From Lachnospiraceae bacterium (GTDB taxonomy: Bacteria; Bacillota; Clostridia; Lachnospirales; Lachnospiraceae): 44,765 nucleotides of DNA. The position numbers were made by a program, and so were the translations under genes. The stretch covers positions 1 through 44,765 of the forward strand of contig JAFWDM010000058.1 in NCBI GenBank assembly GCA_017513005.1, given 5' to 3'. The first letter of the stretch is position 1. Each line of letters opens with the position of its first letter. Below the pieces are notes generated by a model that saw only the letters and a program-made list of their open reading frames with translations, made no database searches and was not told the DNA's origin. Shown here piece after piece: positions 26,388-40,689 of the stretch.

Positions 26388-26422
26388 AAAAGGAGTGCCG
26401 TGCTCCAAAGGCACTGCACTCC
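26388..26422 (-). terminator. Terminator after rplS
   Basis: GGAGTGC (26392-26398) pairs with GCACTCC (26416-26422), with further pairing inside, followed on the minus strand by UUUU. The short U-tract suggests partial read-through into rbgA, which starts 65 bp further on. Confidence 0.6.
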
Positions 26423-26435
26423 CGCTGAAATACCA

Positions 26436-26798
26436 TTATTTCTTCCTGTCGTCGATCCTTGCCTTGACCTTCGCCTTCTTGCCGCTGAGGCCGCGCAGAT
26501 AGAACAGTTTCGCCCTTCTGACCTTACCTCTGCGAACAACTTCCACGTTCTCCACATTGGGGGAGTGGATGGGCCATGTCTTCTCGACGCCGATGCCGTT
26601 GGAGATCTTCCTGACGGTAAATGTCGTCCTGGCGCCGCCGCCCTGGATCTTGATCACGGTGCCCTCAAAGATCTGTACCCTTTCTCTGGTACCTTCCTTG
26701 ATGCGGTTGTGAACACGGACAGTATCACCGGTCGCGAACTGAGGGACTTCCGCCTTCAGCTGCTCTTTCTCCAGTTCCTTGATGATCTCAAAATTCAT
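26436..26798 (-). CDS. rplS: 50S ribosomal protein L19
   Basis: A 120-residue L19, located at the 30S-50S interface. Core seen: [28 protein letters not shown] (split here by family positions), [21 protein letters not shown], and the basic end [19 protein letters not shown]. The ATG at 26798 has AAGGAG upstream and gives the standard N-terminus. Normally trmD lies directly upstream; here a seven-gene cluster separates them and rplS has its own promoter at 27063-27091. Confidence 0.97.
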
Positions 26799-27056
26799 GA
26801 TATTCTCCTTTCCACGCCGGACGTTCTTGCCTCCGGGCGGCCGGCGCCGCATGAGAGCAGCCGGACCAGCCGTGCCGTAAGACCATCAGGGGAGCGGATG
26901 CCGCGGGGTACAAACCTCGAAGCAAAGGCACCTGCTGCACAGATCTCTTATACAGACACAGTATGATGCAGACAGGATCAGAACCGTCTGCAGACGGGCA
27001 GAGGACCGTCTTAAGTGAACAGAAACGCGCGGCAGGATGCCGCAAAACAAAGCAAC
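26799..27056 (-). other. Long rplS leader RNA with inverted repeats
   Basis: About 258 nt between the predicted transcription start and the rplS ATG contain no ORF I accept. The leader contains a perfect 14-bp palindrome (CCGTCTGCAGACGG) and a GC-rich inverted repeat near the start codon. An autoregulatory L19 leader is known in Firmicutes; whether this is one needs a covariance search. Confidence 0.4.
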
Positions 27057-27062
27057 GTTAAT

Positions 27063-27091
27063 AATTTACCACAAGACTCCCCGGAGCGCAA
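27063..27091 (-). promoter_or_regulatory. Sigma-A promoter of rplS
   Basis: Minus strand: TTGCGC (27086-27091), a 17-bp spacer and TAAATT (27063-27068). It starts 9 bp after the stop of the last gene of the Pel-like cluster. No terminator is seen between, so upstream transcripts may also read into rplS. Confidence 0.7.
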
Positions 27092-27099
27092 GGTTTTTT

Positions 27100-28527
27100 T
27101 CAGTATTTTCTCGGCGACAGATATACCTTGTGGATCCCCTCCCGATCGGGCAGGACTCCCTTCTGGGCGAGTGTGATATAGCGGGATCCGTCCGGGCTCT
27201 TTATCGAGATCCCCACCCGGAAGCCCCTCAGGAGGCTCTGTGAGTAAGGGATGGATCCCGTGACCGTCAGTTCCCGGTCGGGGAGCAGGTCCGAGAGCTT
27301 GAGATCCAGCGTCTGCTCCATAGTGCAGTTTCCCTTTGGATCATAGATATACATGGTGACCGGCCAGTCCCAGTACATGGGGGCTCTCCCGATATTTTCA
27401 AAAGTAAAGTGCAGGTCCAGTTCATCATCGATAAAATCGACCGTGGTCTGGAGCCTGGACAGATAGATGCAGTAACCGACATTCCGCAGGATCATCTCGC
27501 TGCCGTTGGTCTGCTGCTGCGCGGCATCCGGACACGCGGGACCTATAAAGGATATATGGCTGTTCCGGATCTGGTCCAGGGTCTCCGACAGGCTGTCCAT
27601 GAGCAGGTCTTCCATATCGGCCGTGCCTGTCATGCCCCCGCCGACAGGCTCCCTGGTCCACAGCCTGTCCCCGGATGCGCCGGCCGCAGCTTTGGCGGCT
27701 GCCTTTTCAGCTCCGTCTGCACGCAGCCCCTGTCCGTCTTTTCCGTAATCCACACTCTCCGAGATCCATTTCCAGGAAGCTTCTTTGTCCCCCAGCACAT
27801 CATTCCAGCTGCCGCCGGCGGCCATCTCCGATCCTGCGCTGTTCAGGAGGCGGATCCCGCTCTGCGGGGGAAAGGCTTCCTCATACTGCTGCGCGAACCG
27901 GCGAAGCAGGCTGCCGGAAGGGATCCTCTGCGCCGCGGAGGAAGCAGCCGGGTCCCAGATCCCGGCGGGTCCGACGGAACCGATCTCCACATATGCCACA
28001 AAACTGTCCTGCAGGCACCACGCAGAGAGTGCGCGCAGGGCTTCTCCATGCGCGGTGATAAAGTCCTCATTCCCGTAGTCGGGACAATACCCCTTTCCGG
28101 ATTCGTCGTCGTAGACCGTCCCGCCGCCGGTCCTCTCATAAAGCCAGTCGGGTATATCCCTGTGTTCCGTTTCGCCCGGAAGATCACAGACAAAGCGCAG
28201 CACCGCGTGCTTTCCTGCCGCTTTATATGCTGCTACGTGATACTTCTCCTCCAGCTCCCGTACCGCGAAGACACCTTCCCGGGGCTCCCATTCCGAGAAG
28301 GGGAGCAGGATGAAGACGAGATCCGTCCCCTCGCAGTCCTCCGGTCTCTCCGCGGGGGGCGCATACCCGGTCAGTGGATTGGACGGCACATTCTCTGCCG
28401 CATCATACAGAACGATGTTGTAGAGTCTGTAGCGGCCGGGCACAATATATAGCAGGATTCCCAGGATCAGGACCGCCTGCACGGCGATCAGGATATAGGG
28501 GAGTTTTTTACGAATAAACCTTTTCAT
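27100..28527 (-). CDS. DUF4832-type membrane-anchored protein at the end of the Pel-like cluster
   Basis: A 475-residue protein with an N-terminal TM anchor (~10-30) and an extracellular part. After the anchor comes NPLTGYAPPAER, like the NPxxG entry of DUF4832/DUF4874 proteins. A probable TIM-barrel, glycoside-hydrolase-like part follows, with VEIGSVGPAGIWDP. The C-terminal ~130 residues match the DUF4832 beta-sandwich pattern: NVGYCIYLSRLQTTV and FENIGRAPMYWDWPV. An Ala/Gly-rich insert lies near 255-285. It starts 3 bp after the pelG stop, so it is part of the same operon. It may bind or trim the polysaccharide outside the cell; no function is established to my knowledge. Confidence 0.7.
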   Translation of the reverse strand: MKRFIRKKLPYILIAVQAVLILGILLYIVPGRYRLYNIVLYDAAENVPSNPLTGYAPPAERPEDCEGTDLVFILLPFSEWEPREGVFAVRELEEKYHVAAYKAAGKHAVLRFVCDLPGETEHRDIPDWLYERTGGGTVYDDESGKGYCPDYGNEDFITAHGEALRALSAWCLQDSFVAYVEIGSVGPAGIWDPAASSAAQRIPSGSLLRRFAQQYEEAFPPQSGIRLLNSAGSEMAAGGSWNDVLGDKEASWKWISESVDYGKDGQGLRADGAEKAAAKAAAGASGDRLWTREPVGGGMTGTADMEDLLMDSLSETLDQIRNSHISFIGPACPDAAQQQTNGSEMILRNVGYCIYLSRLQTTVDFIDDELDLHFTFENIGRAPMYWDWPVTMYIYDPKGNCTMEQTLDLKLSDLLPDRELTVTGSIPYSQSLLRGFRVGISIKSPDGSRYITLAQKGVLPDREGIHKVYLSPRKY

Positions 28528-28530
28528 GTT

Positions 28531-30033
28531 TCAGTTGCCACCCTTCTGTCCCCGGTTACGCCGCATACCGATCGTGCCCGCGGCGCGGCGGTCGATCCTG
28601 GTAAAGACCCCTTCGATCCGGGTGAAGACCCCCGCAGCGGCAGGCGCATACGCTGCCTGCCTGCCGAGCAGCAGATAGGGGAGACGTCTCGTAGACCACT
28701 CCATCCTGGCCAGCACGATCAGAAAATAGACAATGGCACCCGCCATAAACCCCAGACCGTAATAGGCTGTATCCCCGAAGACCGCCTGCCAGACGGTGAC
28801 CGCATTCGCAACGAGGGCGAAGGCGCCGGTCGCAAGGACAGAACCCCTGTAGTCCTCAAAATACAAAAGCACGAGCATCATGGCATTTGCAATGGCATAC
28901 AGGCCGTACCCTACGCAGAGTGTGCGGAAGATCCCCTTGCCCAGATCCATCATCCCCAAGGGCAGAATATCCATGATAAAACCGCCGAATACGACAAAGA
29001 GGATGGTGCTCACGATCTGTCTGTACCCGCAGTAGGTCAGTTCGCGGGAGAGCACCTCCACCATCCTGTCCTCTGCCGCATCAATATCGCCGATCGCGCC
29101 GCCGTCATTGAAGAGACTGTAATACTGCCTGTATTCCGGATAAAAGCGAACCTCCACAGAGGTCACGAAACTGATGGTCGTGATCAGTATGGAGAAAAAG
29201 GCGGTCAGGGAGGGGATGTCATAACTCGGGGCCGCGTAAAACAGACCCATGATCTTTCTGTGAAGGGGGCCGAAATACATGATGACCAGATGCCCGTACA
29301 GACCGAGGTTGACAAAAACACCCGTGAGGGCAAGAGCCCGGCACCTGTCAAACCACTGCAGGAAGGTAAAGGGACTCCCCTCTCCATGGGGAAAATATCC
29401 CAGCATCAGGACATAGTACCAGACGGACATGATCCCGTACGCCAGGATCACACAGAACATCAGGCTCAGCACTGTCCCCCTGCGGCACATGGCGAGCAGG
29501 AGCGCCAGCAGAAAACCGGTCATCATGGAGGCGGCAAAGCCCAGGGCGATCGCCTTGTAATCCTTCAGGGCGGACAGATAATTCATCTGCGTCCACACCA
29601 CGATCATGGTGAGCGCAAACCACATACTGACGATCCTGTAGACCCAGGGAACCCCGGAAAAGAGCAGGACCGTCCCGTACCCCAGTACGCACAGAGGCAG
29701 CATCACAGCCAGCGCCCCGTAAAAAGAGGGCATCACCCGCTCCTGCTTCCCTTCATAGAGCATATCGGAGATATACCGGGTAAGGATCATATTAAAAAAA
29801 CTTGTCACAAACAGAGAGACCAGCAGGCTGTATGTCAGCATACAGTTCATGATCTCCCTCTCATTCTGCGGCATGCCTGCCACCTGGGAGACGAAAGAGA
29901 TCCCCAGAAGGAGCAGCACCCCCATGACCATAGGGCCGATCGCAACCGCGCCTGCATAGGCATAGGCGCGGCACAGATTCAGCATTCCTTTTTTCTGAAA
30001 CAGCCTGTTCAGGCTGAAGCCGATCCCGGCCAT
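28531..30033 (-). CDS. pelG: PelG-like polysaccharide transporter
   Basis: A 500-residue integral membrane protein with about 12 TM helices and the PelG opening MAGIGFSLNRLFQKKG. PelG belongs to the MOP/MATE-type flippase superfamily and is thought to move Pel polymer across the membrane with PelF. Other PelG-like stretches: FVTSFFNMILTRYISDMLYEG, SVEVRFYPEYRQYYSLFNDGG and EDRMVEVLSRELTY. Its length is slightly above the ~456-residue Gram-negative protein; the additional part is a C-terminal Arg-rich tail. Directly downstream of pelF (19 bp). Confidence 0.92.
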   Translation of the reverse strand: MAGIGFSLNRLFQKKGMLNLCRAYAYAGAVAIGPMVMGVLLLLGISFVSQVAGMPQNEREIMNCMLTYSLLVSLFVTSFFNMILTRYISDMLYEGKQERVMPSFYGALAVMLPLCVLGYGTVLLFSGVPWVYRIVSMWFALTMIVVWTQMNYLSALKDYKAIALGFAASMMTGFLLALLLAMCRRGTVLSLMFCVILAYGIMSVWYYVLMLGYFPHGEGSPFTFLQWFDRCRALALTGVFVNLGLYGHLVIMYFGPLHRKIMGLFYAAPSYDIPSLTAFFSILITTISFVTSVEVRFYPEYRQYYSLFNDGGAIGDIDAAEDRMVEVLSRELTYCGYRQIVSTILFVVFGGFIMDILPLGMMDLGKGIFRTLCVGYGLYAIANAMMLVLLYFEDYRGSVLATGAFALVANAVTVWQAVFGDTAYYGLGFMAGAIVYFLIVLARMEWSTRRLPYLLLGRQAAYAPAAAGVFTRIEGVFTRIDRRAAGTIGMRRNRGQKGGN

Positions 30034-30052
30034 ATCCTGTCCAACCTTCCTC

Positions 30053-31474
30053 TTATGTAGAATATCTCAAAAAGACTTCGTCGTAGGTATCCAGATAATT
30101 CCGGATCATGTCCTCATGGCGGAAATATTTTTTTGCCCGTTCTCTGCCCGCCCGTCCCATCTGCAGACGTCTTGCCCGGTTGCGGCACAGATCCTCCATG
30201 GCCCGGGCCAGGGCGTGCGGCTGCATGGGAGGCACGCAGTATCCCGCCTGTCCGAACCTGTCCTCTCCCTCTCCGTAGATCAGTTCCTTGCAGCAGCCGA
30301 CATCCGTCGTCACACAGGGGCGCCCTGCCGCAAATGATTCCAGAACGGAGAGCGGCTGGCCCTCGGAAATACTGGAGAGGACCGTAAAATCAAAATCCCC
30401 CATATACTCGAGGACATTGATCGTCCCCATAAACACAACCCCCCGGATCCCGAGCTGACGCTGGAGCTGCCTGCATTCCAGGGCATATTCGGGGTCGTCC
30501 TCCGGTCCCGCGATAAAAAGCTTCACGCCGGGGATATGCTGTTCTACTTCCGCAAAAGCGTAGAGCATCGTCTTGACATCCTTGATGGGGGCGATCCTGA
30601 GGATCGCACCGATCTGTACCGGCCCGTCGGATTCCCGCGGCTGTATCCCCGCAAACCTGTCATAGTGGATACCGTTTGCGACTGTCCTGCAGGCGGCGGG
30701 GTCCGCACCGATCTCGATCTGGGTGAGACTCGCCCTGGCAAAAAGGCTGGTCACCATCGTGGCACCGCTGTAGGCGGCGGAGGAAAGCATGTAAAAAAAC
30801 CGGATCCACAGATCCTTGAAGGCCGGCAGAACCCAGTTTGCACGGATGATCTCCTCCTCGCGCTCTCTGGTATAGATCCCGTGTTCCGTGAGAAGAACGG
30901 GAACATGATACATGGCACTCCCGAGCCTTGCCAGCACGCCTGCATAGCCGGTCGCGATCGTATGATAGACATCCGCTCTCGGGACGTCTGTGCACATCAC
31001 CCTCAAAAGGGGCAGGAGCATGGACCGGACCGTATGGAAATAGTCCGAAAAAGCTGTATAGGGATATTTTTCCCGGCAGATCTCAGAGAGGATGTCCACA
31101 AAATATTCACTGGACAGGAAGTCCTCCGGAGAGATGCCGCGCTCCTGAAAAATATAGAACAGTTCCTCCCAGTCCGGGCGGCCGCATTCGATCAGATCAA
31201 AAAGGGCACGCAGTTCGAACTCATCAAACTTCAGGGACCCGGAGCGGCGCCTTCCCCCCTGTGCGGGAGCCTGGCCCGAAAGCGATACCTCCCGGACCTC
31301 CACGACGTTTTCCGGAAGCGTATACCGGAATTTTCCGTTCTGCGACGGATCCGCATTGATGGCCCAGACCACAAATTCATGCTGCGGCATCGCCTGTATA
31401 TACTGATGCATCCAGGAGGACACGCCGCCTGTCACATAGGGATAGCATCCCTCCAGGATCACACAAATTCTCAT
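30053..31474 (-). CDS. pelF: PelF-like glycosyltransferase (GT4)
   Basis: A 473-residue cytosolic GT-B enzyme that polymerises the Pel chain from UDP-sugars. PelF hallmarks: start MRICVILEGCYPYVTGGVSSW, the LTEHGIYTREREEEI segment, TVANGIHYDRF, and the C-terminal EX7E motif in SEGQPLSVLESFAAGRPCV. The DVGCCKEL motif is typical of the family. AAAGGCAG precedes the ATG. It follows the deacetylase gene by 49 bp. Confidence 0.94.
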   Translation of the reverse strand: MRICVILEGCYPYVTGGVSSWMHQYIQAMPQHEFVVWAINADPSQNGKFRYTLPENVVEVREVSLSGQAPAQGGRRRSGSLKFDEFELRALFDLIECGRPDWEELFYIFQERGISPEDFLSSEYFVDILSEICREKYPYTAFSDYFHTVRSMLLPLLRVMCTDVPRADVYHTIATGYAGVLARLGSAMYHVPVLLTEHGIYTREREEEIIRANWVLPAFKDLWIRFFYMLSSAAYSGATMVTSLFARASLTQIEIGADPAACRTVANGIHYDRFAGIQPRESDGPVQIGAILRIAPIKDVKTMLYAFAEVEQHIPGVKLFIAGPEDDPEYALECRQLQRQLGIRGVVFMGTINVLEYMGDFDFTVLSSISEGQPLSVLESFAAGRPCVTTDVGCCKELIYGEGEDRFGQAGYCVPPMQPHALARAMEDLCRNRARRLQMGRAGRERAKKYFRHEDMIRNYLDTYDEVFLRYST

Positions 31475-31523
31475 AGCTGCCTTTCTAAAACCCGTAGCCG
31501 GGCAGGTGATCCCCTGCCAACGG

Positions 31524-33350
31524 TCACTGATTGATGTCGATCTCCAGGACCGGCTCCGTGGCTCTCACCAGATAGAGTCCGTCCGCCGCCTCACTGATGG
31601 ACCCGCCATAAATCCGGCCCGGCTTCCCGTGGTTGACGCGCAGGTAAAACCAGGCTTCATCGCTGAAATTTCCCAGCTCCACACGGATCCCCCACTCCGT
31701 TTCCTCTCTCCGGATCTGCAGGGCATCGTAGCGCTGAACTGCCCCCGTGAGCTCGCTTCCGGTAAGGTTCCGCATCTGGGGAAGCGCATTGTGCAGCCAG
31801 TCCACATAATCTGTCAGACGTGCCAGCAGCTCCGTCCATCCCAGTGCAGCGCCGCGGTCTATATCCAGCACATCGTCCGGGTGCTGGAAATGTGTATTGA
31901 CACAGTGCAGATACAGTTCACTCATCGCCGCTGTGCGCATATAATCATCCAGGACATATCCGGAAATGATCCTGGGCGTCTGTACCATACCGTCTTCGGT
32001 AACGGTGAACTCCTGGCTGTAGGACACATCGTTGTCATCCGGCAGATACAGGCTCGCGATCGCCCTGACCTCAGGGAAATCCTCCGCCAGAAGAGCCCGC
32101 CCCTCTTCCGAAATAATATTGGAAGGCGGAACATAGACGGAAAACCGCTCCTCAGGGAACAACTCATGACAGAAAGAGGACAGTTCCTTTAAGGAATCCC
32201 GCATCGCATCTATGCTGACCCACTGCCTGTAGGAATCATACAGTCCCAGATAGTCAAAGTTTTCCGGAACCAGGGGCATGTGGTTATAGCCGTGGAAGCC
32301 CAGTTCTCCGCCCTCCCGAAGGAGCATGTTCCCGAAATACTGGAAGCGCTGGACATCCTTATTGCGCGGAAAGGTCCCGCTCACCTGGGCGGAATAATCC
32401 TCGATGACCAGCCCTGTATAACGGATGTTGTATTTTTTTGCCAGGTTATAGACATCCTTCCACCAGTGATGGGTGTAGAAATCCTTGATGTCCATCCCGA
32501 ATTCCCTCTGGATGAACTGGCTGTCTCCCTCCGGTACGGGGGACGGAAAGTCATCTATGTAGTAGGTGGAACCGTTGATGACCGGCCAGATACAGGTGTC
32601 ATCCAAAAGCGTAAATGCCGCGCAGTGAAATCCCCTGTAGGCTTTTTCCAGGAAACTCAGGTTATCAAAGACGATCGTGCCTTTCCCGAGAGCGCGTCTC
32701 CACAGAAGCGGGGTCTGCGACACGCCGGCCGCCTCCAGAAAGACCTCGCATGTATCGTCAAGTGTGACCTCCAGGGAAGACCTGTAGGGATCTGTCACGG
32801 ACAGATCACGGCTGCTGCCCGGAAGAATGTTCCGTGTAAAGTGCAGGCCTTCCACCTCGGCAAGCGCGTTTCCTGCGCCGGTGATTCCCAGATGCGGGGC
32901 AATGGACAGAAAGGCCGCATCATTGTAGGGAGGATACAGGATCAGGAGTGAATGTCCGCTCATGACCCAGTCCAGGATCGCCGTCAGGTTTTTTCCGAGT
33001 ACGTTTAAGTCCGTCACAGCCAGAACCGCGTTCTCTTTCCCGTTCAGGTCAGAAGCAGCAAATTCTCCCGACTCTTTCTCCGTATAGGGGATCCTCATCT
33101 GCGAGAGGACCGCCCCCATTTCTCTTCTTCCTTCTCGTCCGGCATCATCTTTTTCCCAGATCAGGATGGTCGAAGCATTCTCCGGCTCAACCGTGCCTTC
33201 AAAATCCCCTTCCTCCAGAATCGTCACCATATCCGTCTTTGAACCGTACAGGACACTGCGCCCCACGGACAGCACGACTGCGAACATGGCTGTATAGATG
33301 ACGAGGATCTCCAGCAGATGCAGAAAACGAGGTCTGCTCTTACGTTTCAT
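31524..33350 (-). CDS. DUF2194 polysaccharide deacetylase-like protein (PelA deacetylase counterpart)
   Basis: A 608-residue protein with an N-terminal TM anchor (~10-33) and a large extracellular region. An early Rossmann-like part (residues ~50-240) resembles the reductase-like middle part of PelA. It leads into a CE4-type deacetylase: YYIDDFPSPVP carries the catalytic/metal Asp, and LGFHGYNHMPL carries the metal His. A final beta-sandwich-like part ends the protein. It corresponds to PelA-DA of Gram-positive pel clusters, which deacetylates the GalNAc/GlcNAc-type polymer. The hydrolase domain of Gram-negative PelA is not in this protein but in the gene at 36239-37216. A 35-bp tandem duplication precedes its RBS. 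Confidence 0.85.
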   Translation of the reverse strand: MKRKSRPRFLHLLEILVIYTAMFAVVLSVGRSVLYGSKTDMVTILEEGDFEGTVEPENASTILIWEKDDAGREGRREMGAVLSQMRIPYTEKESGEFAASDLNGKENAVLAVTDLNVLGKNLTAILDWVMSGHSLLILYPPYNDAAFLSIAPHLGITGAGNALAEVEGLHFTRNILPGSSRDLSVTDPYRSSLEVTLDDTCEVFLEAAGVSQTPLLWRRALGKGTIVFDNLSFLEKAYRGFHCAAFTLLDDTCIWPVINGSTYYIDDFPSPVPEGDSQFIQREFGMDIKDFYTHHWWKDVYNLAKKYNIRYTGLVIEDYSAQVSGTFPRNKDVQRFQYFGNMLLREGGELGFHGYNHMPLVPENFDYLGLYDSYRQWVSIDAMRDSLKELSSFCHELFPEERFSVYVPPSNIISEEGRALLAEDFPEVRAIASLYLPDDNDVSYSQEFTVTEDGMVQTPRIISGYVLDDYMRTAAMSELYLHCVNTHFQHPDDVLDIDRGAALGWTELLARLTDYVDWLHNALPQMRNLTGSELTGAVQRYDALQIRREETEWGIRVELGNFSDEAWFYLRVNHGKPGRIYGGSISEAADGLYLVRATEPVLEIDINQ

Positions 33351-33374
33351 TTATCTTGCTGCTCCATTTGTTAT

Positions 33375-33444
33375 CTTCATCGCGCAGAACACGAGACCGG
33401 GTCCTGCATCTTCATCGGACAGGACAAGCGGACCGGTCCTGCAT
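33375..33444. repeat. 35-bp tandem duplication between the PelE-like and deacetylase genes
   Basis: Copies at 33375-33409 and 33410-33444, 27/35 identical. The second ends at the last base before the stop codon of the PelE-like gene. Almost the whole intergenic gap is made of this duplication. Confidence 0.8.
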
Positions 33445-34365
33445 TTAAGTGCGCCAGAAGGCAAGCTGGTCCCTGGCGGCAGGCGAGAGGTAGAGGCCGC
33501 GGTGCCGGATCATATCCAGAATCTCACTGATCCCCTGCCAGTCCCGCGCGATCGCTCTGGCCTTTACAAGAAGGAGGTATCCCTCCTCGCTGTCAGGCGA
33601 CTCATGGACCAGGGCCTGCCCCGCCTTTTCCGCTCCGGAAGAATCCTCCTGCAGGACACACATCTCCCCCAGGCGCAGCAGGACTTTTTTGTTCTGCGGA
33701 GCAGTCAGGCCCCTCGTCGTCCTGCCTGTCTCCTGCCAGGCCTTGTACTGCAGGAACTTTTCAAGCATGGTCCGACAGTGCGCGATCCTCTCCAGCCGTT
33801 CATTGTTCTCCGGAATGCCGCTCCGGATGTATTCTTCATCCAGATCCGCGTATTCCAGCAGGATCCGTCCGTCCGCGGGCCGCTCCTGAAACCGTTTTTC
33901 CATCCCGGCGATGCGCTGCGCAAATTCACTTCGCAGCTCGACGAGGGCAGTGACAGCGTAATGGACGACTTCCGTATCGTCATTCACACCTGCGACGCGC
34001 AGCGGCCGCACAAAGGGTTCCGGACCTGTATGGAGGACGGACAGAAGAAGGTCTCTGCGCTGGGCGGGTGATCCATCCGCGAGCACATCCTCCATGGGGA
34101 GGATATCATCCACACCGCCTTCTTCCATATGAATATTCCTGTACACCTGATCTGTGATCCCGAATCGTCCGTAAGCAGGCTCTTCGTCCGCCTTTTCTCC
34201 ACCCAGATAATGCATCTGCGCGATCAAAGCACAGACAGGTCCCCAGAGAGGAAGCAGCAGGACCGCCGGCAGCATTACCGGCGGAATATGAAAGCTTCCC
34301 CTGCCCCACTGGACGATGATGAAAAAGGCAGCCGCCAGATGTAAAACCATCAGTAAAAGTGTCAT
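33445..34365 (-). CDS. pelE: PelE-like protein (two TM helices plus helical repeats)
   Basis: A 306-residue protein. Two N-terminal TM helices (~2-20 and 27-50), then a cytoplasmic all-helical region with TPR- or HEAT-like spacing: NDDTEVVHYAVTALVELRSE, RPADGRILLEYADLDEEYI, KKVLLRLGEMCVLQEDSSGA. Gram-negative PelE is likewise membrane-anchored with TPRs and works with PelD. Similarity here is in architecture and position more than in motifs. Starts 3 bp after the pelD stop (tight coupling). Confidence 0.72.
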   Translation of the reverse strand: MTLLLMVLHLAAAFFIIVQWGRGSFHIPPVMLPAVLLLPLWGPVCALIAQMHYLGGEKADEEPAYGRFGITDQVYRNIHMEEGGVDDILPMEDVLADGSPAQRRDLLLSVLHTGPEPFVRPLRVAGVNDDTEVVHYAVTALVELRSEFAQRIAGMEKRFQERPADGRILLEYADLDEEYIRSGIPENNERLERIAHCRTMLEKFLQYKAWQETGRTTRGLTAPQNKKVLLRLGEMCVLQEDSSGAEKAGQALVHESPDSEEGYLLLVKARAIARDWQGISEILDMIRHRGLYLSPAARDQLAFWRT

Positions 34366-34368
34366 CGA

Positions 34369-36222
34369 TCACACCTGTACCCTCTCCCGCAGAGCGGCGT
34401 GCTCCAGTGCATCCCGGAACAGTTCACACAGGATGGTAAAATGATTCATATACCACAGGCTCAGCTGGTCCATCGATGCCTTTTCCACCGTCACGACCAG
34501 CGTGATCGTACGGCTGTCACCGCGATTCTGCTGCAGGGCCCTGTCGTACTGTACCCTGTACGCGTACATGGGCGCTCCATCCAGAAACCGCTCGTTTTTC
34601 CAGGTCTTTCCCGCCCGGATGACTTCTGTCATCTCCGGGCAGTACTGTGCTGTAAGAGACCGCCTGGTAGTGTTTTCCCGGCAGCAGGACAAGAGCTGCG
34701 CCCGTTTTCCGTCGGGATCCATTTCATAGATGAAAACCGTCTCATTGTCCAGAAGGTTCCGGAGGATCCTGACCGCCTCGACAGACACTGCTTCCGGCGT
34801 CCGCCGGGACATTCCGCGGACTGCATCGAAGACCTTTGCATAACTCTCTTCTTCGCTCAGGATCTGGGTCCGAAGTTCCCTGCGGTCATCCACACTCTCC
34901 TGATAGGCGTCAAGAAGATAGAGGTATTTATTGCGGATCAGTGCGTTTTCCGCCCTGACAGACCTGATCTCCTGCCTGTTCTTCTGGTGGGTGTAGCCAC
35001 TGATCACGCCGGCTGTCAGATAATAGACAAAGGGGATCCAGTTTTCGACGTTGTAAAACAGCAGAAGTCCGGAGATCCCGATCCCGCTGTAGCGGATGAC
35101 GAGCATCACACATTCCATGGCGGCTGCCGCAAAGCCGATCGCAAGTCCGTGCATCATGCCCATCAGAACGACAAAAAGCAGACGCACATCCACGATCTTG
35201 AAGTAGACGGAGTCGGAAGTGATCCTTCCCAGGTATTCGGCGATCAGGAACATGATGACCAGATCCAGCACCGCGCCGATCCATTTTCCCGACTCCCGCA
35301 GAAAACCGGAGAGCTTCTCCATGGGGGTCTTCGCCCTTGCCCCGCTCTCGACAAACTGCTGGTACTGCACAGAGATCTCCCTGGCCCGGTCGATCGAGAC
35401 AGGCAGACGGTACATCTCACCCAGATTTCCATCACAATTCTCCCGGTCACAGACCGGGATCCGGAAACGGGCGGCAGTACGTGACGGCAGTTTTCTGCCT
35501 TTTCCTCCTGCCCCCCTGTTTTTCCCCCGGGTCTCCGAATATTCGATCAGGGCATCCGGCCGGATCGAAAGCAGGACCTCACGCAGGTCCTCCAGCCTTC
35601 CCCCGCTCCCGTCTGCCGCATAGATCCCCTCCCGGAACCAGGTTTCGTCCGTCATGCGAAGCAGCATGGCAGTCAGCTCCTGCATAGGAAGGACAGACAG
35701 TTCCATCCCGGGTTCCCCCTCCAGGATCAGTGTTTTTCCGGCCTGCAGTGCGCTGAAGATACGCATCAGACGTCCGCGGGGCGTTCCGGTCCCGGTCAGA
35801 AGCGGCAGCCGGCAGACTGCAGTCTCTACGGATGACCAGTCTCCCTGCGCAGAAGATGATTCCCCGTGAAGCTGTCTGTAATCTGTAGGATCCGTACTCT
35901 CTGTGAGCACGATGCACCTCGGCACCCGGTACCTGGCACAGAGCCGCAGCACCTGCGCAAGGTGCATGTCTTCCTGTACCGGCCGCCCCCCGTCCGCACA
36001 TCCGCTGACATACCAGACCGCGCGGATCCTTCCCGCCTCAAAGACCTTCTGAAAATCACTGTCTGCAGGGCTGAGGGGAAAAACCCGCACATTGGCGGGA
36101 AGATCCCCGTCTCCCCGGTCAGCTCTTTTTCCCGCGAGAAAAACATCATGTGCTTCCGAAATATACTGCAGAGCCTCCCGGGAAAAGAGACTCGTTTTTC
36201 CACATATCAGGATCTTGTCCAT
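34369..36222 (-). CDS. pelD: PelD-like protein: SDR-like domain, TM helices and GAF domain, no GGDEF
   Basis: A 617-residue protein. Residues 1-~230 look like an SDR/epimerase-type Rossmann domain with a poor nucleotide loop (ICGKTSLFSREAL in place of GxxGxxG), so it may be non-catalytic. Residues ~318-425 hold several TM helices (AVLDLVIMFLIAEYLG; LLFVVLMGMMHGLAIGFAAA; FVYYLTAGVISGY). A charged helical segment leads to a GAF-like domain (~480-610). Gram-negative PelD ends with a degenerate GGDEF domain whose RxxD site binds c-di-GMP; here the protein ends right after the GAF part, so that site appears absent. Gram-positive PelD proteins with an N-terminal SDR-like domain are known. Assignment rests on architecture and operon position. 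Confidence 0.78.
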   Translation of the reverse strand: MDKILICGKTSLFSREALQYISEAHDVFLAGKRADRGDGDLPANVRVFPLSPADSDFQKVFEAGRIRAVWYVSGCADGGRPVQEDMHLAQVLRLCARYRVPRCIVLTESTDPTDYRQLHGESSSAQGDWSSVETAVCRLPLLTGTGTPRGRLMRIFSALQAGKTLILEGEPGMELSVLPMQELTAMLLRMTDETWFREGIYAADGSGGRLEDLREVLLSIRPDALIEYSETRGKNRGAGGKGRKLPSRTAARFRIPVCDRENCDGNLGEMYRLPVSIDRAREISVQYQQFVESGARAKTPMEKLSGFLRESGKWIGAVLDLVIMFLIAEYLGRITSDSVYFKIVDVRLLFVVLMGMMHGLAIGFAAAAMECVMLVIRYSGIGISGLLLFYNVENWIPFVYYLTAGVISGYTHQKNRQEIRSVRAENALIRNKYLYLLDAYQESVDDRRELRTQILSEEESYAKVFDAVRGMSRRTPEAVSVEAVRILRNLLDNETVFIYEMDPDGKRAQLLSCCRENTTRRSLTAQYCPEMTEVIRAGKTWKNERFLDGAPMYAYRVQYDRALQQNRGDSRTITLVVTVEKASMDQLSLWYMNHFTILCELFRDALEHAALRERVQV

Positions 36223-36238
36223 TTGTATTTCCTAAAAT

Positions 36239-37216
36239 TTACTCTGCCGAAGGAACCAGGTTCACATGCCTGGAAATATAATACCGAAACGCATGCTCCC
36301 TGCAGTACAAGGTGATCTTTTCCTCTATGGACAGGTCATCTGTGTACTCGAGAAGAAATACCTGCAGGCCTTCTTCGGCACATTCTTCCAGATATTCACA
36401 GTAGTGTTCTGTTTCGTCCTCGTCCTGTGCTTCAAATCCATCTCTTTTGTAATCTGTGATGGCAGTGAAGACAGTCTCCTGATTCACACCCAGGATCAGG
36501 CTGCCCATATCATCCTCCAGAAGACGCCGGACGAAATCCTCCGCTCCGTTGATCAGGACCGGGATCTCCCCGGCATGGTATTCCTGCAGGATCTTTATAA
36601 GCGCCTCATAGGCATTTTCGCTCTCGGCGCGGTATTTTCCGGAAGACGCCATATGAAAATAGACGTCCAGATTGTCCAGAAACAGGCCGTCCACCTTCGG
36701 ATCCTTCTCCAGGATCCGGGCGGGAAGATCGGCAGTGACAAATCTCTGCCATTCCTCTTTCGTCACATCGATCCAGTTCTCCTCCGGCCAGTTCTTATAC
36801 CGGTCCAGACAGATATCCGTAAAATCCTCGTAGTAATCCCGGAAATCTTCGATCGATCCCACATTCAGATAGGAGTATACGATATGTCCCCTGGCATGAA
36901 GCTGGGCCAGCTGTTCCTTTCGAAGTTCCTGGGCATCCACCACGACCAGATCATAGCCGTCAAAAATATCGATGGAAAAAGAATCCTCATCCACGCCCAG
37001 AAAGACCCCGTAGCTCTCCGCCGATGTATCTGAGAGATCCGCCAGCTCCTGTGGAGACAGCGAATGCCCGCTGCCGGCGCTGTCGCTGCCCTTCTGCCCG
37101 GAGGTGCAGTTTGTGAATACACATGCAAGCACGATCAATAGAAAAGCAGCCGCCAGGTCTCTGAAAAGCCGTCTATGATTCTTCCTGTCCGGAGACAGGG
37201 CTCTGTTTTTCTTCAT
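36239..37216 (-). CDS. GH114/GH166-like (TM1410-type) glycoside hydrolase, secreted or lipoprotein
   Basis: A 325-residue exported protein. Basic start, hydrophobic core ~20-34, and a possible lipobox VLAC (C31), with a second Cys at 37. The remainder is a TIM-barrel of the endo-alpha-1,4-polygalactosaminidase group: YGVFLGVDEDSF, DLVVVDAQELRKEQLAQL, YSYLNVGSIEDFRDYY, NWIDV, and GLFLDNLDVY (~177-187), which carries conserved acidic residues. This is the hydrolase part of Gram-negative PelA, encoded separately. The ATG at 37216 is only 11 bp after the trmD stop, with a weak AGAGAAG site, so transcription from the trmD unit probably enters the Pel-like cluster here. Longer in-frame starts inside trmD were not used. 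Confidence 0.85.
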   Translation of the reverse strand: MKKNRALSPDRKNHRRLFRDLAAAFLLIVLACVFTNCTSGQKGSDSAGSGHSLSPQELADLSDTSAESYGVFLGVDEDSFSIDIFDGYDLVVVDAQELRKEQLAQLHARGHIVYSYLNVGSIEDFRDYYEDFTDICLDRYKNWPEENWIDVTKEEWQRFVTADLPARILEKDPKVDGLFLDNLDVYFHMASSGKYRAESENAYEALIKILQEYHAGEIPVLINGAEDFVRRLLEDDMGSLILGVNQETVFTAITDYKRDGFEAQDEDETEHYCEYLEECAEEGLQVFLLEYTDDLSIEEKITLYCREHAFRYYISRHVNLVPSAE

Positions 37217-37227
37217 CCGTTCTTCTC

Positions 37228-38025
37228 TCACTCTTTCCGGCCATGCCGCTCGCCGGAGCGGCGTTCTTCCAGCCGTTTCGCACGGGCGAGGCGTTTCGCG
37301 CGGGCCTCCATAATATCGGGATGGTCCTCCACAAACCTTGCATAGAGATCGGGTCTGCGCTCTTTTGTGACGGAAAGAGACTGCTCCAGCCTCCATTCCT
37401 CCACCTTTGCGTGGTCGCCGGACAAAAGAACGGGAGGCACCTCCTGCTCCCTCCACAGGGCAGGCCGCGAATACTGGGGGTATTCCAGAAGGCCGGTCAT
37501 AAAGGAATCCGATCCGGCGGATTCCTCGTTTCCGAGGACGCCCGGGATCATCCGGGATATGGCGTCGATCATGACAAGTGCGGGGAGCTCCCCGCCCGTC
37601 AGCACGAAGTCCCCGATCGAGACTTCCTCCGCTTGGATCTCCTCCAGGGCGCGGGCATCGATTCCCTCGTAGTGGCCGCACAGGAGGATCAGTTCCTTCT
37701 CCTCTGCGAGTGCCTGTGCCATCCGCTGGTCAAAAACACGTCCGCGGGGAGACATATACAGGACCCGTGCCCTGCGTCCCTGCCGCACCTCGACCTGTCT
37801 CTGGACGGCTTCACAGCAGTCGTAGACCGGCTGGGCCTGCATCAGCATGCCGGCACCTCCGCCGTAAATATAATCGTCCACGCGGTTGTGCCGGTTCGTG
37901 GTATAGGCGCGGATATCGACTGCATCCACTTCTACCAGCCCCTTTCTGGCGGCGCGTCCGAGAATGCTGTCTGCCGCGGCATTGTGCACCATCTCCGGAA
38001 AGAGCGTGAGGACATGGAACCGCAT
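37228..38025 (-). CDS. trmD: tRNA (guanine-37-N1)-methyltransferase TrmD
   Basis: A 265-residue SPOUT methyltransferase that makes m1G37 using SAM. Deep-trefoil-knot motifs: LLCGHYEGIDARALE, EVSIGDFVLTGGELPAL and ISRMIPGVLGN. The N-terminus MRFHVLTLFPEMV is standard. The ATG at 38025 overlaps the rimM stop by one base (TGATG) with GGAGG 7 nt upstream; a GTG one codon earlier is possible. Confidence 0.97.
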   Translation of the reverse strand: MRFHVLTLFPEMVHNAAADSILGRAARKGLVEVDAVDIRAYTTNRHNRVDDYIYGGGAGMLMQAQPVYDCCEAVQRQVEVRQGRRARVLYMSPRGRVFDQRMAQALAEEKELILLCGHYEGIDARALEEIQAEEVSIGDFVLTGGELPALVMIDAISRMIPGVLGNEESAGSDSFMTGLLEYPQYSRPALWREQEVPPVLLSGDHAKVEEWRLEQSLSVTKERRPDLYARFVEDHPDIMEARAKRLARAKRLEERRSGERHGRKE

Positions 38026-38537
38026 CACAGATCCTCCAGCCCGGGCATGACATAGACCGTCATAAAGCCCTCCTCAGGCCTGACGTCCAGTATACAGTCC
38101 GGAATAGCCGGCAGCAGAAGGTCCTTTTGTCCCTCCCTCTCCACGGCATAAACGTCATTGGCACCCGTCTCGATCACTTCCCGCAGGATCCCGATCTGCG
38201 TCCCGTCCTGCGTGCGCACGGCAAGCCCGATCAGGTCTGCGACGTAATATTCCCCCTCTTCAAGGGGGATCGCATCTTTGCGGTCCACCAGAAGCGCACA
38301 TCCGCGCAGCTTCTCCACGTCTTCGATCCGGTCCATCCCCCTGAAACCAAGGATAACAAACTTTTTAAAGAACTTTACGCTTCGGATCCCGATCCGGCGT
38401 TCCTCCCGGGGCGTCTGCAGGATCACTTCCTTCAGATCCAGAAACCGCGCGGGGTCCTCTGTCGTCGGAAAAACCTTTACTTCCCCCCGCAGGCCATGTG
38501 TTCCGGTGATCACGCCTACCTGAAAACGTTCTTTCAC
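38025..38537 (-). CDS. rimM: Ribosome maturation factor RimM
   Basis: A 170-residue 30S assembly factor. N-terminal beta-barrel: QVGVITGTHGLRGEVKV; C-terminal PRC-barrel: GEYYVADLIGLAV and LLPAIPDCILDV. I chose a GTG start at 38537, with GGAAGG 7 nt upstream; the usual family N-terminus begins there. Earlier in-frame codons would add ~25 unrelated residues. Translationally coupled to trmD. Confidence 0.95.
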   Translation of the reverse strand: MKERFQVGVITGTHGLRGEVKVFPTTEDPARFLDLKEVILQTPREERRIGIRSVKFFKKFVILGFRGMDRIEDVEKLRGCALLVDRKDAIPLEEGEYYVADLIGLAVRTQDGTQIGILREVIETGANDVYAVEREGQKDLLLPAIPDCILDVRPEEGFMTVYVMPGLEDL

Positions 38538-38610
38538 TTTCTTTCCTTCCCCCGCCGGCAGCAGAATGCTCTTATGTCTGCAGGGCAGTTTCCTGCACAG
38601 TCTTTGTTGC

Positions 38611-38634
38611 AAAAGGGCGGCGTAAACGCCGCCC
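38611..38634 (-). terminator. Terminator-like hairpin between khpA and rimM
   Basis: A perfect 8-bp GC stem (38615-38622 against 38627-38634), TTTA loop, then UUUU on the minus strand. The short U-tract suggests an attenuator that lowers expression of rimM-trmD and the Pel-like genes relative to rpsP. Confidence 0.65.
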
Positions 38635-38647
38635 TCCTAGCTTCATG

Positions 38648-38875
38648 TTAATCGATATCCACATCGATCCTGTAATCTTCCTGAACAGAGGCGGCCTTGA
38701 CAACAGACCGGATCGCTCTCGCGATCCTTCCCTGCCGTCCGATCACCTTGCCCATGTCTGAAGGCGCCACATGCAGCTGGATCCGAATGTTTCTGCCTTC
38801 TTTCTTCTGGGTCACAACGACTTCGTCGGGATTATCGACAAGCGCCTTTGCGATCACTTCAACCAATTCTTTCAT
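38648..38875 (-). CDS. khpA: KH-domain RNA-binding protein KhpA (YlqC)
   Basis: A 75-residue single KH domain. The GxxG loop lies in MGKVIGRQGRIARAIRSV. In Firmicutes KhpA pairs with KhpB and affects cell size and RNA levels. The ATG at 38875 is preferred over a TTG two codons earlier; GGAAGGA lies upstream. Between rpsP and rimM as in other Firmicutes. Confidence 0.95.
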   Translation of the reverse strand: MKELVEVIAKALVDNPDEVVVTQKKEGRNIRIQLHVAPSDMGKVIGRQGRIARAIRSVVKAASVQEDYRIDVDID

Positions 38876-38907
38876 AGACAATCCTTCCGGTCGTCAGGCG
38901 CGGTTCC

Positions 38908-39150
38908 TTATTTGATGCCTGCCTGCCTGAAAAGTTTTTTGACCACAGTCGTAGGCTGTGCGCCGTTCCCAAGCCACTTTTTTGCCGCCTCAACATCGAT
39001 GTCAACAGTACCGGGATCTGTGTTGGGATTGTAATGTCCGATCGTATCGATTGCTCTTCCATCCCTGGGGGTAGATGCGTCCGCGACCACGATCCTGTAA
39101 AGCGGGACCTTCTTCTCACCGATTCTTGTAAGTCTGATTTTCACTGCCAT
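38908..39150 (-). CDS. rpsP: 30S ribosomal protein S16
   Basis: An 80-residue S16 with the family start [20 protein letters not shown] and [16 protein letters not shown] near the end. AAGGAGGAAA precedes the ATG at 39150. It lies 153 bp downstream of ffh; a possible extra promoter is at 39205-39233. Confidence 0.97.
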
Positions 39151-39204
39151 TGTAAAGTTTCCTCCTTTTTTTACGCACCGCACATTTCTATTTTCCGGTG
39201 CTGT

Positions 39205-39233
39205 TTTTTATCCTTTGCAACTGTTCCGGACAA
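39205..39233 (-). promoter_or_regulatory. Possible weak promoter of rpsP
   Basis: Minus strand: TTGTCC (39228-39233), a 17-bp spacer and TAAAAA (39205-39210). Spacing is ideal but both hexamers are imperfect. Confidence 0.35.
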
Positions 39234-39303
39234 GTCCGTTTCAGGATACTCCGATACTGCTGTGTGTACTGCTGCGTGCGGGTACCCTGCTGCCGGATCC
39301 CGT

Positions 39304-40689
39304 TTAAAACGGAAAACCGCCGCGGCGTCCGCCCATTCCTCCGAACATTCCTGCCATCGGGTTCCTTCCCCGGCGCCTGCCGCCGCCGCCCATCTGCTTC
39401 ATCATCTTCTGCATCTGGTTAAACTGCTTGATGAAACGGTTGACCGTCGCGATATCGCAGCCGGATCCCTTCGCGATCCTGAACTTGCGCTGGGGGCTGA
39501 GTATCTTGGGATTGGCCCGTTCCTGGGGTGTCATGCTCAGGATGATCGCTTCTGTCTGTTTGAGCTGCTTCTCGTCGATCGCACCCTCGAGCATATCCCG
39601 GCTCATACCGAGGCCGGGCAGCATGGACAGGATGCTGGACATGCCGCCCATCTTGCGCATCTGTTTCATGCTTTCCAGGTAATCATTGAAGTCGAACTTG
39701 CCCTTGCGGACGCGTCCGGCCATATCCCGGCTCTTATCCTCATCCTCCTGGTCCAGGGCTTCCCTGGCCTTGTCGATGAGGGTCAGGACGTCGCCCATCC
39801 CCAGGATCCGGCTGGCCATCCGGTCGGGATGAAACTGCTCCAGGTCCGAGAGCTTTTCGCCCATACCGACGTAGAGGATCGGTTTGCCGGTCACTGCCTT
39901 GATGGAGAGCGCCGCACCGCCGCGGGTGTCGCCGTCCATCTTGGTCAGGATCACCCCGTCGACACCGACCTTCTCGTCAAAGGTCTTCGCCACATTGACC
40001 GCTTCCTGTCCGGTCATCGCATCCACGACAAGAACTGTCTGATGGACGGTGACCGCTTTCTTGATGTCGGAGAGCTCCTGCATCATCGCCTCGTCGATCT
40101 GCAGGCGGCCCGCCGTATCGAGGATCACGACCGTCTCTCCGTTCTCCCTGGCATGCCGCATCGCCGCTTCCGCGATCCTCGCGGGTTTTGTCCCGTCCTC
40201 GAGCGCAAAGACATCGACGCCCTGCTTCTGGGCATTGACCTGCAGCTGACGGATCGCAGCCGGCCGGTAGATGTCCAGGGCGACCAGAAGGGGCTTGCGG
40301 CCCTTGGACTTGAACTTGCCCGCCAGCTTCGCCGCAGTCGTCGTTTTACCGGCACCCTGCAGGCCTGCCATCATGATCACCGTAGCTTCCCTGCCCGGCT
40401 CAAACCGGATCTCGGTCGTGTCGGATCCCATGAGGTCGGTCATCTCCTCGTTGACGATCTTGATGACCATCTGGGCGGGATTCAGTCCGTTCATGACATC
40501 CGCGCCGACTGCCCTCTCCTCGACCGTGGAGACAAACTTTTTGACGACCTTGAAATTGACATCCGCCTCCAGCAGGGCCATCTTCACTTCCCGCATTGCG
40601 GTCTTGACATCGCCCTCGGTCAGCCGGCCTTTTCCGCTCAGATTCCGGAATACCTGATTGAGTTTGTCTGTCAGACTTTCAAAAGCCAT
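39304..40689 (-). CDS. ffh: Signal recognition particle protein Ffh
   Basis: A 461-residue SRP GTPase that binds signal peptides and 4.5S/6S RNA. NG domain: GLQGAGKTTTAAKLAG, DTAGRLQID, TKMDGD. M domain from ~300 with Met-rich helices and the RNA-binding segment KGSGCDIATVNRFIKQF. The C-terminal Gly/Arg/Met-rich tail is typical. The ATG overlaps the ylxM stop (TAATG), showing tight coupling. Confidence 0.97.
   Translation of the reverse strand: MAFESLTDKLNQVFRNLSGKGRLTEGDVKTAMREVKMALLEADVNFKVVKKFVSTVEERAVGADVMNGLNPAQMVIKIVNEEMTDLMGSDTTEIRFEPGREATVIMMAGLQGAGKTTTAAKLAGKFKSKGRKPLLVALDIYRPAAIRQLQVNAQKQGVDVFALEDGTKPARIAEAAMRHARENGETVVILDTAGRLQIDEAMMQELSDIKKAVTVHQTVLVVDAMTGQEAVNVAKTFDEKVGVDGVILTKMDGDTRGGAALSIKAVTGKPILYVGMGEKLSDLEQFHPDRMASRILGMGDVLTLIDKAREALDQEDEDKSRDMAGRVRKGKFDFNDYLESMKQMRKMGGMSSILSMLPGLGMSRDMLEGAIDEKQLKQTEAIILSMTPQERANPKILSPQRKFRIAKGSGCDIATVNRFIKQFNQMQKMMKQMGGGGRRRGRNPMAGMFGGMGGRRGGFPF

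Follow-up and report, generated by a model that had tools for sequence, protein, structure and literature searches.

In one clade of Lachnospiraceae, a seven-gene pel cluster lies between trmD and rplS, close behind the trmD stop codon and ahead of a conserved promoter-like block of rplS, and its PelD ends without the GGDEF-like tail carried by its nearest relatives. Pel is a sticky biofilm sugar, usually discussed as a c-di-GMP-controlled matrix. The best explanation, which we regard as moderately probable, is that Pel has here been freed from c-di-GMP gating and is transcribed with the trmD unit, with rplS self-started. The gene content of such clusters is already published; the position behind trmD is unusual.

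Gene content of the cluster

The window, that is, the whole stretch of DNA analysed (44,765 nucleotides of a Lachnospiraceae contig), carries seven minus-strand genes at 27100-37216, in the order pelAH, pelD, pelE, pelADA, pelF, pelG and a DUF4832 gene (Table 1). The initial annotation had placed a seven-gene Pel-like locus at this position behind trmD, and an ORF check of the window found the seven ORFs in the same order and at the same coordinates, in agreement with the profile matches. The identity as a Gram-positive pel cluster is supported by every available sequence test. PelF falls far under the cut-offs of all 21 other listed families, and the family's own profile gives the best score for PelF and likewise for PelG, so that assignment to unrelated glycosyltransferase or flippase families, raised initially as a possible objection, is not borne out. 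The separate hydrolase and deacetylase genes and the DUF4832 gene had been singled out as outstanding, but both features are described for Gram-positive pel clusters in PMC7112168 and PMC12345266.

Table 1. Features of the trmD-pel-rplS region, in window coordinates
Feature	Position	Strand	Description
rplS	26436..26798	-	ribosomal protein L19
rplS leader stem, 3' arm	26819..26831	-	GGC-AAGAA-CGTCC
rplS leader stem, 5' arm	26997..27010	-	GACG-GTCCTCTGCC
Hairpin with T-rich tail	27028..27044	-	immediately beyond the inferred start of the rplS transcript; either a leader hairpin or a weak terminator
rplS promoter-like block	27063..27091	-	TTGCGC-17-TAAATT, then ATTAACGTTGC; 8 nt past DUF4832 stop
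DUF4832 gene	27100..28527	-	membrane-anchored putative glycoside hydrolase, SIR_1591 type; PF16116 E 8.2e-9
pelG	28531..30033	-	exporter; PF16933 418 bits (cut-off 29), E 6.3e-125
pelF	30053..31474	-	GT4 polymerase; NF038011 356.5 bits (cut-off 100); PF11997
pelADA	31524..33350	-	DUF2194 polysaccharide de-N-acetylase; PF09960 E 9.7e-144; PDB 9zau 5.7e-61
pelE-like	33445..34365	-	by position; tblastn matches in 74/80 pel loci; two N-terminal hydrophobic regions
pelD	34369..36222	-	putatively SDR-like at the N-terminus, membrane-spanning at ~313-390, then GAF-like; GGDEF lacking
pelAH	36239..37216	-	GH114-type glycoside hydrolase, PelA hydrolase-like; PF03537 E 3.6e-21
trmD	37228..38028	-	TIGR00088 match; last gene of rpsP-KH-rimM-trmD run into pel

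The PelADA blocks DDFP, HGYNH, PPSN, PRIISG and HFQHPDD are present in all 12 sequences compared (11 clade copies and that of genome G015), and the metal and catalytic residues named in PMC13254593 fall within conserved aligned blocks. The pelAH profile matches GH114, TM_1410 and polygalactosaminidase PDB entries, and its LDN-D, NGA, GVNQETV and EYT blocks each occur in all 11 clade copies. Its N-terminal hydrophobic stretch (16-41) contains a Cys column, also conserved in 11/11, pointing to a surface lipoprotein. The DUF4832 protein aligns with that of Streptococcus intermedius (hhalign 100%, 1e-48), taken here as SIR_1591, the last of four genes after pelG, and positions 71-256 of its profile match a beta-galactosidase (2.1e-4). 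It should be mentioned that neither pelD nor the pelE-like gene has a Pfam match over the cut-off; both were identified by position and similarity, PelE without profile support, and the pelE assignment is thus a weak one.

In each of the nine genomes that have the complete stretch on a single contig, the seven frames are open and follow the same order. Where computable among five genome pairs, dN/dS of the pel genes is 0.05-0.23, with dS >1 in most pairs and no value for pelF in two pairs and for pelAH in one. As judged from these ratios, the pel genes are shown to be under purifying selection.

The trmD-pelAH junction

In the window, rimM and trmD overlap by 4 nt, and a gap of 11 nt separates the trmD stop (37228) from the start of pelAH downstream (37216). 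The two genes overlap or are at most 39 nt apart in nine of the eleven genomes, in line with the early description of rimM-trmD as reading straight into the cluster; the pelAH starts were chosen by script and are uncertain, and in G010, G430 and G442 the long overlap may be artefactual. No terminator-like hairpin was found in this gap in ten of the eleven genomes, the window included. The exception is G009, with a hairpin in a gap of 133 nt; the gap in G431 measures 139 nt, and pel could have a separate start in these two. The window has contiguous same-strand genes from the ffh-trmD unit into pel with neither a terminator-like hairpin nor a promoter-like site before pelAH, a run that is interrupted in G009.

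A consensus scan of the window gave no promoter-like site in the trmD-pelAH gap, nor any on the pel strand in 36978-41000, so the ffh/rpsP promoter was not located. One weak site was found within pelAH (36978-36950); the scan yielded 7 sites in total against 6.5 expected. The spacer alignments listed, in which the trmD-pelAH part is incomplete, contain no conserved promoter or RNA element within the pel cluster. This gene layout suggests that trmD and pel are co-transcribed.

A probable separate start for rplS

The rplS start lies 301 nt past the DUF4832 stop. The promoter-like block in this spacer was identified by conservation and is absent from the consensus-scan sites. Its pattern, TTGNNN-17-TNNNNT-GTTGY, is present in all ten clade spacers; with spacers of 16-18 it is found in 33 of 47 pel-free rplS upstreams and in none of 47 shuffled ones. 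The -35 element is 6-8 nt from the DUF4832 stop in six of the ten genomes and 48-213 nt in the other four, and a terminator-like hairpin lies within the DUF4832-rplS spacer in six of ten. A direct pairing count, which scored 48 of 57 genomes, puts the leader stem downstream of the block at 98.4% paired; shuffles that take no account of relatedness give 90.2% (sd 1.0). On this count the leader is covarying. Rfam gave no relevant match for the leader in window 26400-27300 at E up to 5 or in L020 2200-2400, and none at the gathering score in 12 loci.

rplS retains a conserved promoter-like block and a leader of its own, so pel is placed before a second start and not within an undivided operon. 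On this evidence it is a tail behind trmD, with rplS control unbroken. The position behind trmD was described correctly at the outset; the further statement, which sets pel inside the most conserved translation operon, goes too far, given the rplS block and the finding that, in other families of the order, rplS was not found within ~1.5 kb at five of nine informative trmD loci.

Distribution and origin of the insertion

PelG scores over the cut-off in 12 of the 62 genomes of the genus of the window, and 11 of these 12 carry pel behind trmD. The trmD-to-rplS stretch is on one contig in nine, on two in G449, and represented in G014 by the trmD side and a separate piece. The arrangement recurs in 10 genomes besides that of the window and is therefore not an assembly artefact. 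An insertion universal at trmD-rplS, which the initial annotation had named as an outcome that would count against it, is rejected by the pel-free relatives in the genus. Since the ten insertion-bearing genomes placed in the tree (of 11) form one clade with a bipartition support of 100, a single insertion event is likely.

Sampling of 30 further genomes of the order that carry PelG showed no instance of the arrangement, though contig breaks could hide a case. Abiotrophia defectiva (L105) was considered and rejected as an equivalent, its pel genes lying behind rimM-trmD-rplS with ~0.8 kb and a terminator-like hairpin (assigned by eye) between. G423 has an N-acetylmuramoyl-alanine amidase gene in the trmD-rplS slot, the rplS promoter-like block and leader being kept. 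The window cluster lacks the CotH and DUF4956 genes found in sister clusters; relocation elsewhere was considered, and no contig with both matches was found in the six clade genomes searched for the two families (G000, G008, G009, G010, G011, G014). The accessible portions of the literature on pel clusters, PelD classes and the trmD-rplS region contain no report of the trmD-pel arrangement, which is not proof of its absence in print.

PelD without a receptor tail

The clade PelD aligns with S. intermedius PelD over 550 columns (probability 99.5%, E 7.6e-23, 21% identity). The alignment includes the ~300 N-terminal residues, for which the sole PDB match is GalE (E 0.11). Hydropathy and alignment with other PelD GAF regions support the transmembrane and GAF-like regions of this protein, whose gene adjoins pelFG. 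Beyond them, the tail is 4-5 aa in ten clade genomes, and the G014 fragment agrees. Of the 63 other PelD rows, 56 have a tail of at least 100 aa with RxxD, and the 14 sister loci (L055-L067, L086) are all among them. The profile of this tail matches GGDEF chains, with R and D invariant in 29/29 aligned members; at the sequence level its identity as GGDEF is weak (best E 0.0053; Pfam GGDEF match in 1/29). The comparison shows the clade PelD to be without the C-terminal degenerate GGDEF (c-di-GMP) receptor domain, as far as that domain can be recognized in the tail. In having no GGDEF domain the protein agrees with class IV, whose members keep an N-terminal degenerate SDR domain but lack GGDEF, and to which S. 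intermedius PelD is assigned in PMC12345266. The same paper calls Pel regulation undetermined where PelD is without a receptor domain.

The full tail is also absent without a trmD insertion in two streptococci, Abiotrophia, Faecalibacterium hattorii, L121 and G015. GGDEF genes number 0-1 in each of five of the six clade genomes searched; the window's own genome has 8 GGDEF matches. It is noted that this clade gives a single instance of PelD domain loss and a single instance of pel relocation, so that their association has n = 1.

Proposed mechanism and alternatives

We propose that a pel cluster of the Lachnospiraceae type was placed once, in the clade ancestor, into the interval that separates the trmD stop codon from the rplS promoter. 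The ffh-rpsP-rimM-trmD transcript would run on through the seven genes as its 3' tail, and rplS would be started at a promoter and leader of its own. PelF would polymerise the polymer, from UDP-GalNAc by analogy, PelG with PelD and PelE would export it, PelADA would de-acetylate it outside the cell, and the anchored PelAH and DUF4832 hydrolases would trim or release it. By the same analogy the product may be GalNAc/GalN-based Pel. Because PelD has lost the receptor domain, synthesis would probably be independent of c-di-GMP, and without such gating output should track how strongly the translation operon is transcribed. The growth-rate-linked transcription suggested by the initial annotation is, from the gene layout, a fair hypothesis, and its best indirect support is that the receptor domain is missing in exactly this clade. 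A further-reaching reading, a regulatory swap in which receptor loss was joined to wiring into an essential translation operon, so that the matrix reports growth and ribosome synthesis and not a surface or biofilm signal, is offered tentatively, as a possibility somewhat short of an even chance.

It is rather unlikely that the position is incidental, with pel regulated independently from a promoter in the 3' end of trmD or in pelAH, and the trmD-rplS junction a tolerant landing site since rplS is self-promoted. The amidase gene of G423 does occupy this slot, rplS was not found near trmD at five of nine informative loci of other families, and the wide gaps of G009 and G431, like the weak site within pelAH, could accommodate a separate start. 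However, the tight junction in nine of eleven genomes leaves little room for a promoter, none was detected there in the window, and no conserved non-coding block appears among the spacer alignments listed, whereas that of rplS is conserved.

The catalytic residues of the Bacillus cereus enzyme lie in blocks that PelADA retains, and the two putative hydrolases are related to enzymes reported to act on Pel; both points argue against a different amino sugar or linkage made by Pel-type machinery. We consider such a polymer improbable, although PelF sugar specificity is not readable from sequence, the CotH and DUF4956 genes are missing, and the survey in PMC7112168 leaves possible an unrelated polymer from some Roseburia pel-like loci. 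Still less credible, and in our view very improbable, is a decaying cluster that makes no polymer. The missing GGDEF domain and accessory genes and a pelG split in the G014 draft would suit decay; the constant open frames and the low dN/dS do not, nor does the requirement of S. intermedius for a GGDEF-less PelD to make Pel (PMC12345266).

If transcription with the trmD unit is correct, Pel output may follow growth in this one group of uncultured gut bacteria, a testable prediction on matrix production in fast-growing gut bacteria. In this clade the PelD receptor loss can be mapped on a tree, the sister clusters having retained the domain, and the gene layout suggests a concrete substitute for c-di-GMP control. 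The trmD-rplS junction can evidently accept a 10-kb cluster, the rplS promoter-like block and leader staying put.

Comparison with known pel systems

The S. intermedius cluster (pelDEADAFG and SIR_1591-1594) resembles that of the window in a PelD without GGDEF and with a similar N-terminal part, a DUF4832 hydrolase and a deacetylase-only PelA. Its CotH, polyphosphate polymerase and DUF4956 genes are absent from the window cluster, which in contrast has a GH114 pelAH, lies behind trmD and is nested among tail-bearing Lachnospiraceae clusters. Bacillus cereus ATCC 10987 (pelDEADAFG, pelAH, galE) shares the core five genes, a separate PelAH and the catalytic blocks of PelADA (PDB 9zau). According to the accessible descriptions, however, its PelD binds c-di-GMP via a degenerate GGDEF domain, its pelAH is divergently transcribed, and no DUF4832 gene is mentioned.

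The Lachnospiraceae loci L055-L067 and L086, nearest on the PelF/PelG/PelADA tree, have the pelDEADAFG order and a downstream DUF4832 gene in common with the window; unlike it, they have the PelD tail with RxxD, no trmD and no pelAH match. Two of these loci were scanned between pelG and the DUF4832 gene: L055 carries VTC, DUF4956 and a pair of CotH domains, of which one is fused to PelG, and L064 carries DUF4956 and two CotH genes. With the pelABCDEFG system of Pseudomonas aeruginosa the window cluster shares the PelF and PelG families and the hydrolase and deacetylase functions, whereas that system, as described in the literature, has a single two-domain PelA, outer-membrane export by PelB/PelC and a c-di-GMP-gated PelD.

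The pel cluster and its gene content

On the minus strand of the window, ffh, rpsP, a KH gene, rimM and trmD are followed by seven pel genes (see table) and then by rplS. PelF scored 356.5 bits against its equivalog model (cut-off 100) and PelG 418 bits against its Pfam model (cut-off 29). PelADA is similar to chain 9zau (E 5.7e-61), an entry named in the B. cereus PelADA paper (PMC13254593), and its metal and catalytic residue blocks are kept in all 12 copies compared, 11 from the clade that carries the insertion and one from G015, another genome of the genus. PelAH matched GH114 chains as well as TM_1410 and an endo-alpha-1,4-polygalactosaminidase, with a best E of 1.4e-5, and its blocks LDN-D, NGA, GVNQETV and EYT are conserved in 11/11 clade copies. 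Over 417 columns, the DUF4832 protein could be aligned (probability 100%, 1e-48) with that of S. intermedius, taken from its place to be SIR_1591, which according to PMC12345266 disrupts Pel-dependent aggregates. The putative pelE was assigned by position and tblastn only. The product would be a GalNAc/GalN polymer, which both hydrolases, PelAH and the DUF4832 protein, might trim.

The pel genes are open and under purifying selection, with dN/dS of 0.05-0.23 where computed (five genome pairs; dS >1 in most pairs) and of 0.10-0.23 in the close pair G011/G449. It should be mentioned that pelG of the draft genome G014 consists of two frames, reflecting either an assembly error or a real break.

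The gene content, held to be remarkable in the initial annotation, is already established, because the 2020 survey (PMC7112168) reports pelDEADAFG clusters from Gram-positive bacteria (bacilli, clostridia, streptococci and actinobacteria), together with the separate PelAH, accessory DUF4832 genes and the PelD forms mentioned below. The new aspects are where the cluster sits, with its boundaries, and the PelD change that goes with it.

Coordinates of the pel cluster and of associated or comparable features (G, genomes; L, loci)
Feature	Location	Strand	Description
Seven-gene pel cluster	window 27100-37216	minus	GH114 hydrolase (pelAH), pelD, pelE, DUF2194 de-N-acetylase (pelADA), pelF, pelG, DUF4832 protein
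rplS leader	window 26819-27010	minus	arms GACG-GTCCTCTGCC and GGC-AAGAA-CGTCC, downstream of the promoter-like block
Second TrmD homolog	G000:C18:29644-30474 (L047:5645-6499); L177-L181		G000, genome of the window
Split pelG of G014	L044:100-1544		two frames
Amidase gene of G423	L174:505-1278		PF01520, 4.4e-31
Tandem DUF2194 (PelADA) genes	L055:4889-8598		one pel cluster
Long PelG	L055:10001-13243		fused to a CotH kinase domain
Abiotrophia defectiva locus	L105:2740-4010		pel after rimM-trmD-rplS

Position behind trmD across the genus and the order

Among 62 genomes of the genus, the gene next after trmD is rplS in 47 and pelAH in 11, and the contig or locus ends there in 4. PelG was found over the cut-off in 12/62 genomes, besides two weaker matches; in ten of these 12 it lies about 7-8 kb from trmD on one contig, and only in G015 is pel located elsewhere. 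The full run from trmD to rplS is seen on one contig in nine genomes and over two contigs in G449, while in G014 trmD-pelAH-pelD stand on one contig and pelD to the split pelG on another, with the rplS side unseen. Ten clade members form one group with a bipartition support of 100 in a six-protein tree of 57/62 genomes; G010 is absent from that tree, as it had too few of the six. It is noted that many genomes of the genus, including that of the window, have a second TrmD homolog away from the ribosomal operon, with 39-45% identity to the window's TrmD (six copies aligned) and an internal insertion in some.

Sampling 392 genomes of the order gave 30 further ones with PelG over the cut-off, besides three sub-cut-off matches. 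None of the 30 has trmD near PelG: the two are >100 kb apart on the same contig in 4 and on different contigs in 26, so a case could be hidden at a contig break. In the 80 named loci, drawn from at least 504 confirmed relatives, trmD is near pel in four, namely three clade members and Abiotrophia. In Abiotrophia defectiva, the pel genes follow rimM-trmD-rplS, a terminator-like hairpin separates them from rplS, and PelD is also without a GGDEF tail.

Boundaries of the insertion

In 9/11 genomes, pelAH either overlaps the end of trmD or starts ≤39 nt after its stop; the wider gaps are 133 nt in G009 and 139 nt in G431. The pelAH starts were chosen by script, and G010, G430 and G442 have long overlaps that are doubtful. 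Between trmD and pelAH, no terminator-like hairpin was found in 10/11 genomes; G009 has one. Pel may be transcribed by readthrough from a putative promoter ahead of ffh or rpsP, where none was identified by the consensus scan.

Between the DUF4832 stop and rplS, all ten clade genomes with this interval contain TTGNNN-17-TNNNNT followed by GTTGC or GTTGT, at a distance of 6-8 nt from the stop in six of them and of 48-213 nt in the other four. With a spacer of 16-18, this pattern also occurs upstream of rplS in 33/47 pel-free genomes versus 0/47 shuffled sequences, and in the block, TAAATTATTAA-GTTGCTTTG, only one base distinguishes the window from the pel-free G003. The consensus promoter scan of the window did not list this block, and its assignment therefore rests on conservation.

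Downstream of the block is a leader in which the outer pairs covary within the genus, from C-G to U-A and from G-C to A-U. Its stem is 98.4% paired in the 48/57 genomes scored, versus 90.2% (sd 1.0) in 2000 shuffles that ignore relatedness. Rfam searches upstream of rplS gave no match of the leader to any family; it is probably a divergent L19 leader. As block and leader are both kept, rplS retains a control of its own, the pel genes having been inserted ahead of the rplS promoter. In G423, a genome of the genus, an N-acetylmuramoyl-L-alanine amidase gene occupies the trmD-rplS slot with block and leader kept beside it, which suggests that the slot is a permissive site.

PelD without its C-terminal GGDEF domain

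PelD ends 4-5 residues past the GAF-like region in ten clade genomes, and the G014 fragment agrees. PelD rows were obtained from 65/80 named loci, three being clade copies and one G015 again; 56/63 other rows have at least 100 further residues with the RxxD motif. The R and D are invariant in the 29/29 tails aligned. The tail profile weakly matched five GGDEF or diguanylate cyclase chains (best E 0.0053), and only 1/29 tail members has a Pfam GGDEF match; sequence methods also miss the GGDEF domain of B. cereus PelD, according to PMC7112168.

The other seven rows, which are short, comprise two for G015 (as G015 and L102) and one each for L094 (Faecalibacterium), the streptococci L098 and L099, L105 (Abiotrophia) and L121. 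PelD of Faecalibacterium hattorii (L094), which likewise has no GGDEF tail, stops 13 residues past the GAF region. PelD with an epimerase-like N-terminal domain, the streptococcal ones lacking GGDEF, is known from PMC7112168.

With this domain missing, the Pel synthase would no longer be gated by c-di-GMP. Few GGDEF genes are present in most clade genomes searched: 8 matches in the window's genome, 1 each in G008, G011 and G014, and 0 in G009 and G010, several drafts being incomplete. Genomes without the insertion have 2 (G004), 0 (G013), 32 (G015), 5 (G016) and 4 (G017). The 8 matches in the window's genome do not agree with c-di-GMP signalling simply having been lost. Since domain loss and insertion occur together in one clade, their association is a single case.

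Comparison with the nearest Lachnospiraceae clusters

In a PelF/PelG/PelADA tree that takes in 9/11 clade genomes, the clade (support 1.0) is nested among the Lachnospiraceae clusters L055-L067 and L086. PelG open frames of 1029-1101 aa are present in 20/78 loci; that of L055, the only long one scanned, is fused to a CotH kinase domain, and one pel cluster has a tandem pair of DUF2194 genes. All 14 PelD rows of L055-L067 and L086 have the tail, whereas clade PelD does not. Two of these clusters were scanned, L055 and L064: both have CotH and DUF4956 genes between pelG and the DUF4832 gene, and L055 has VTC there too; in contrast, the pelG-DUF4832 interval of the clade leaves no room for CotH/DUF4956 genes.
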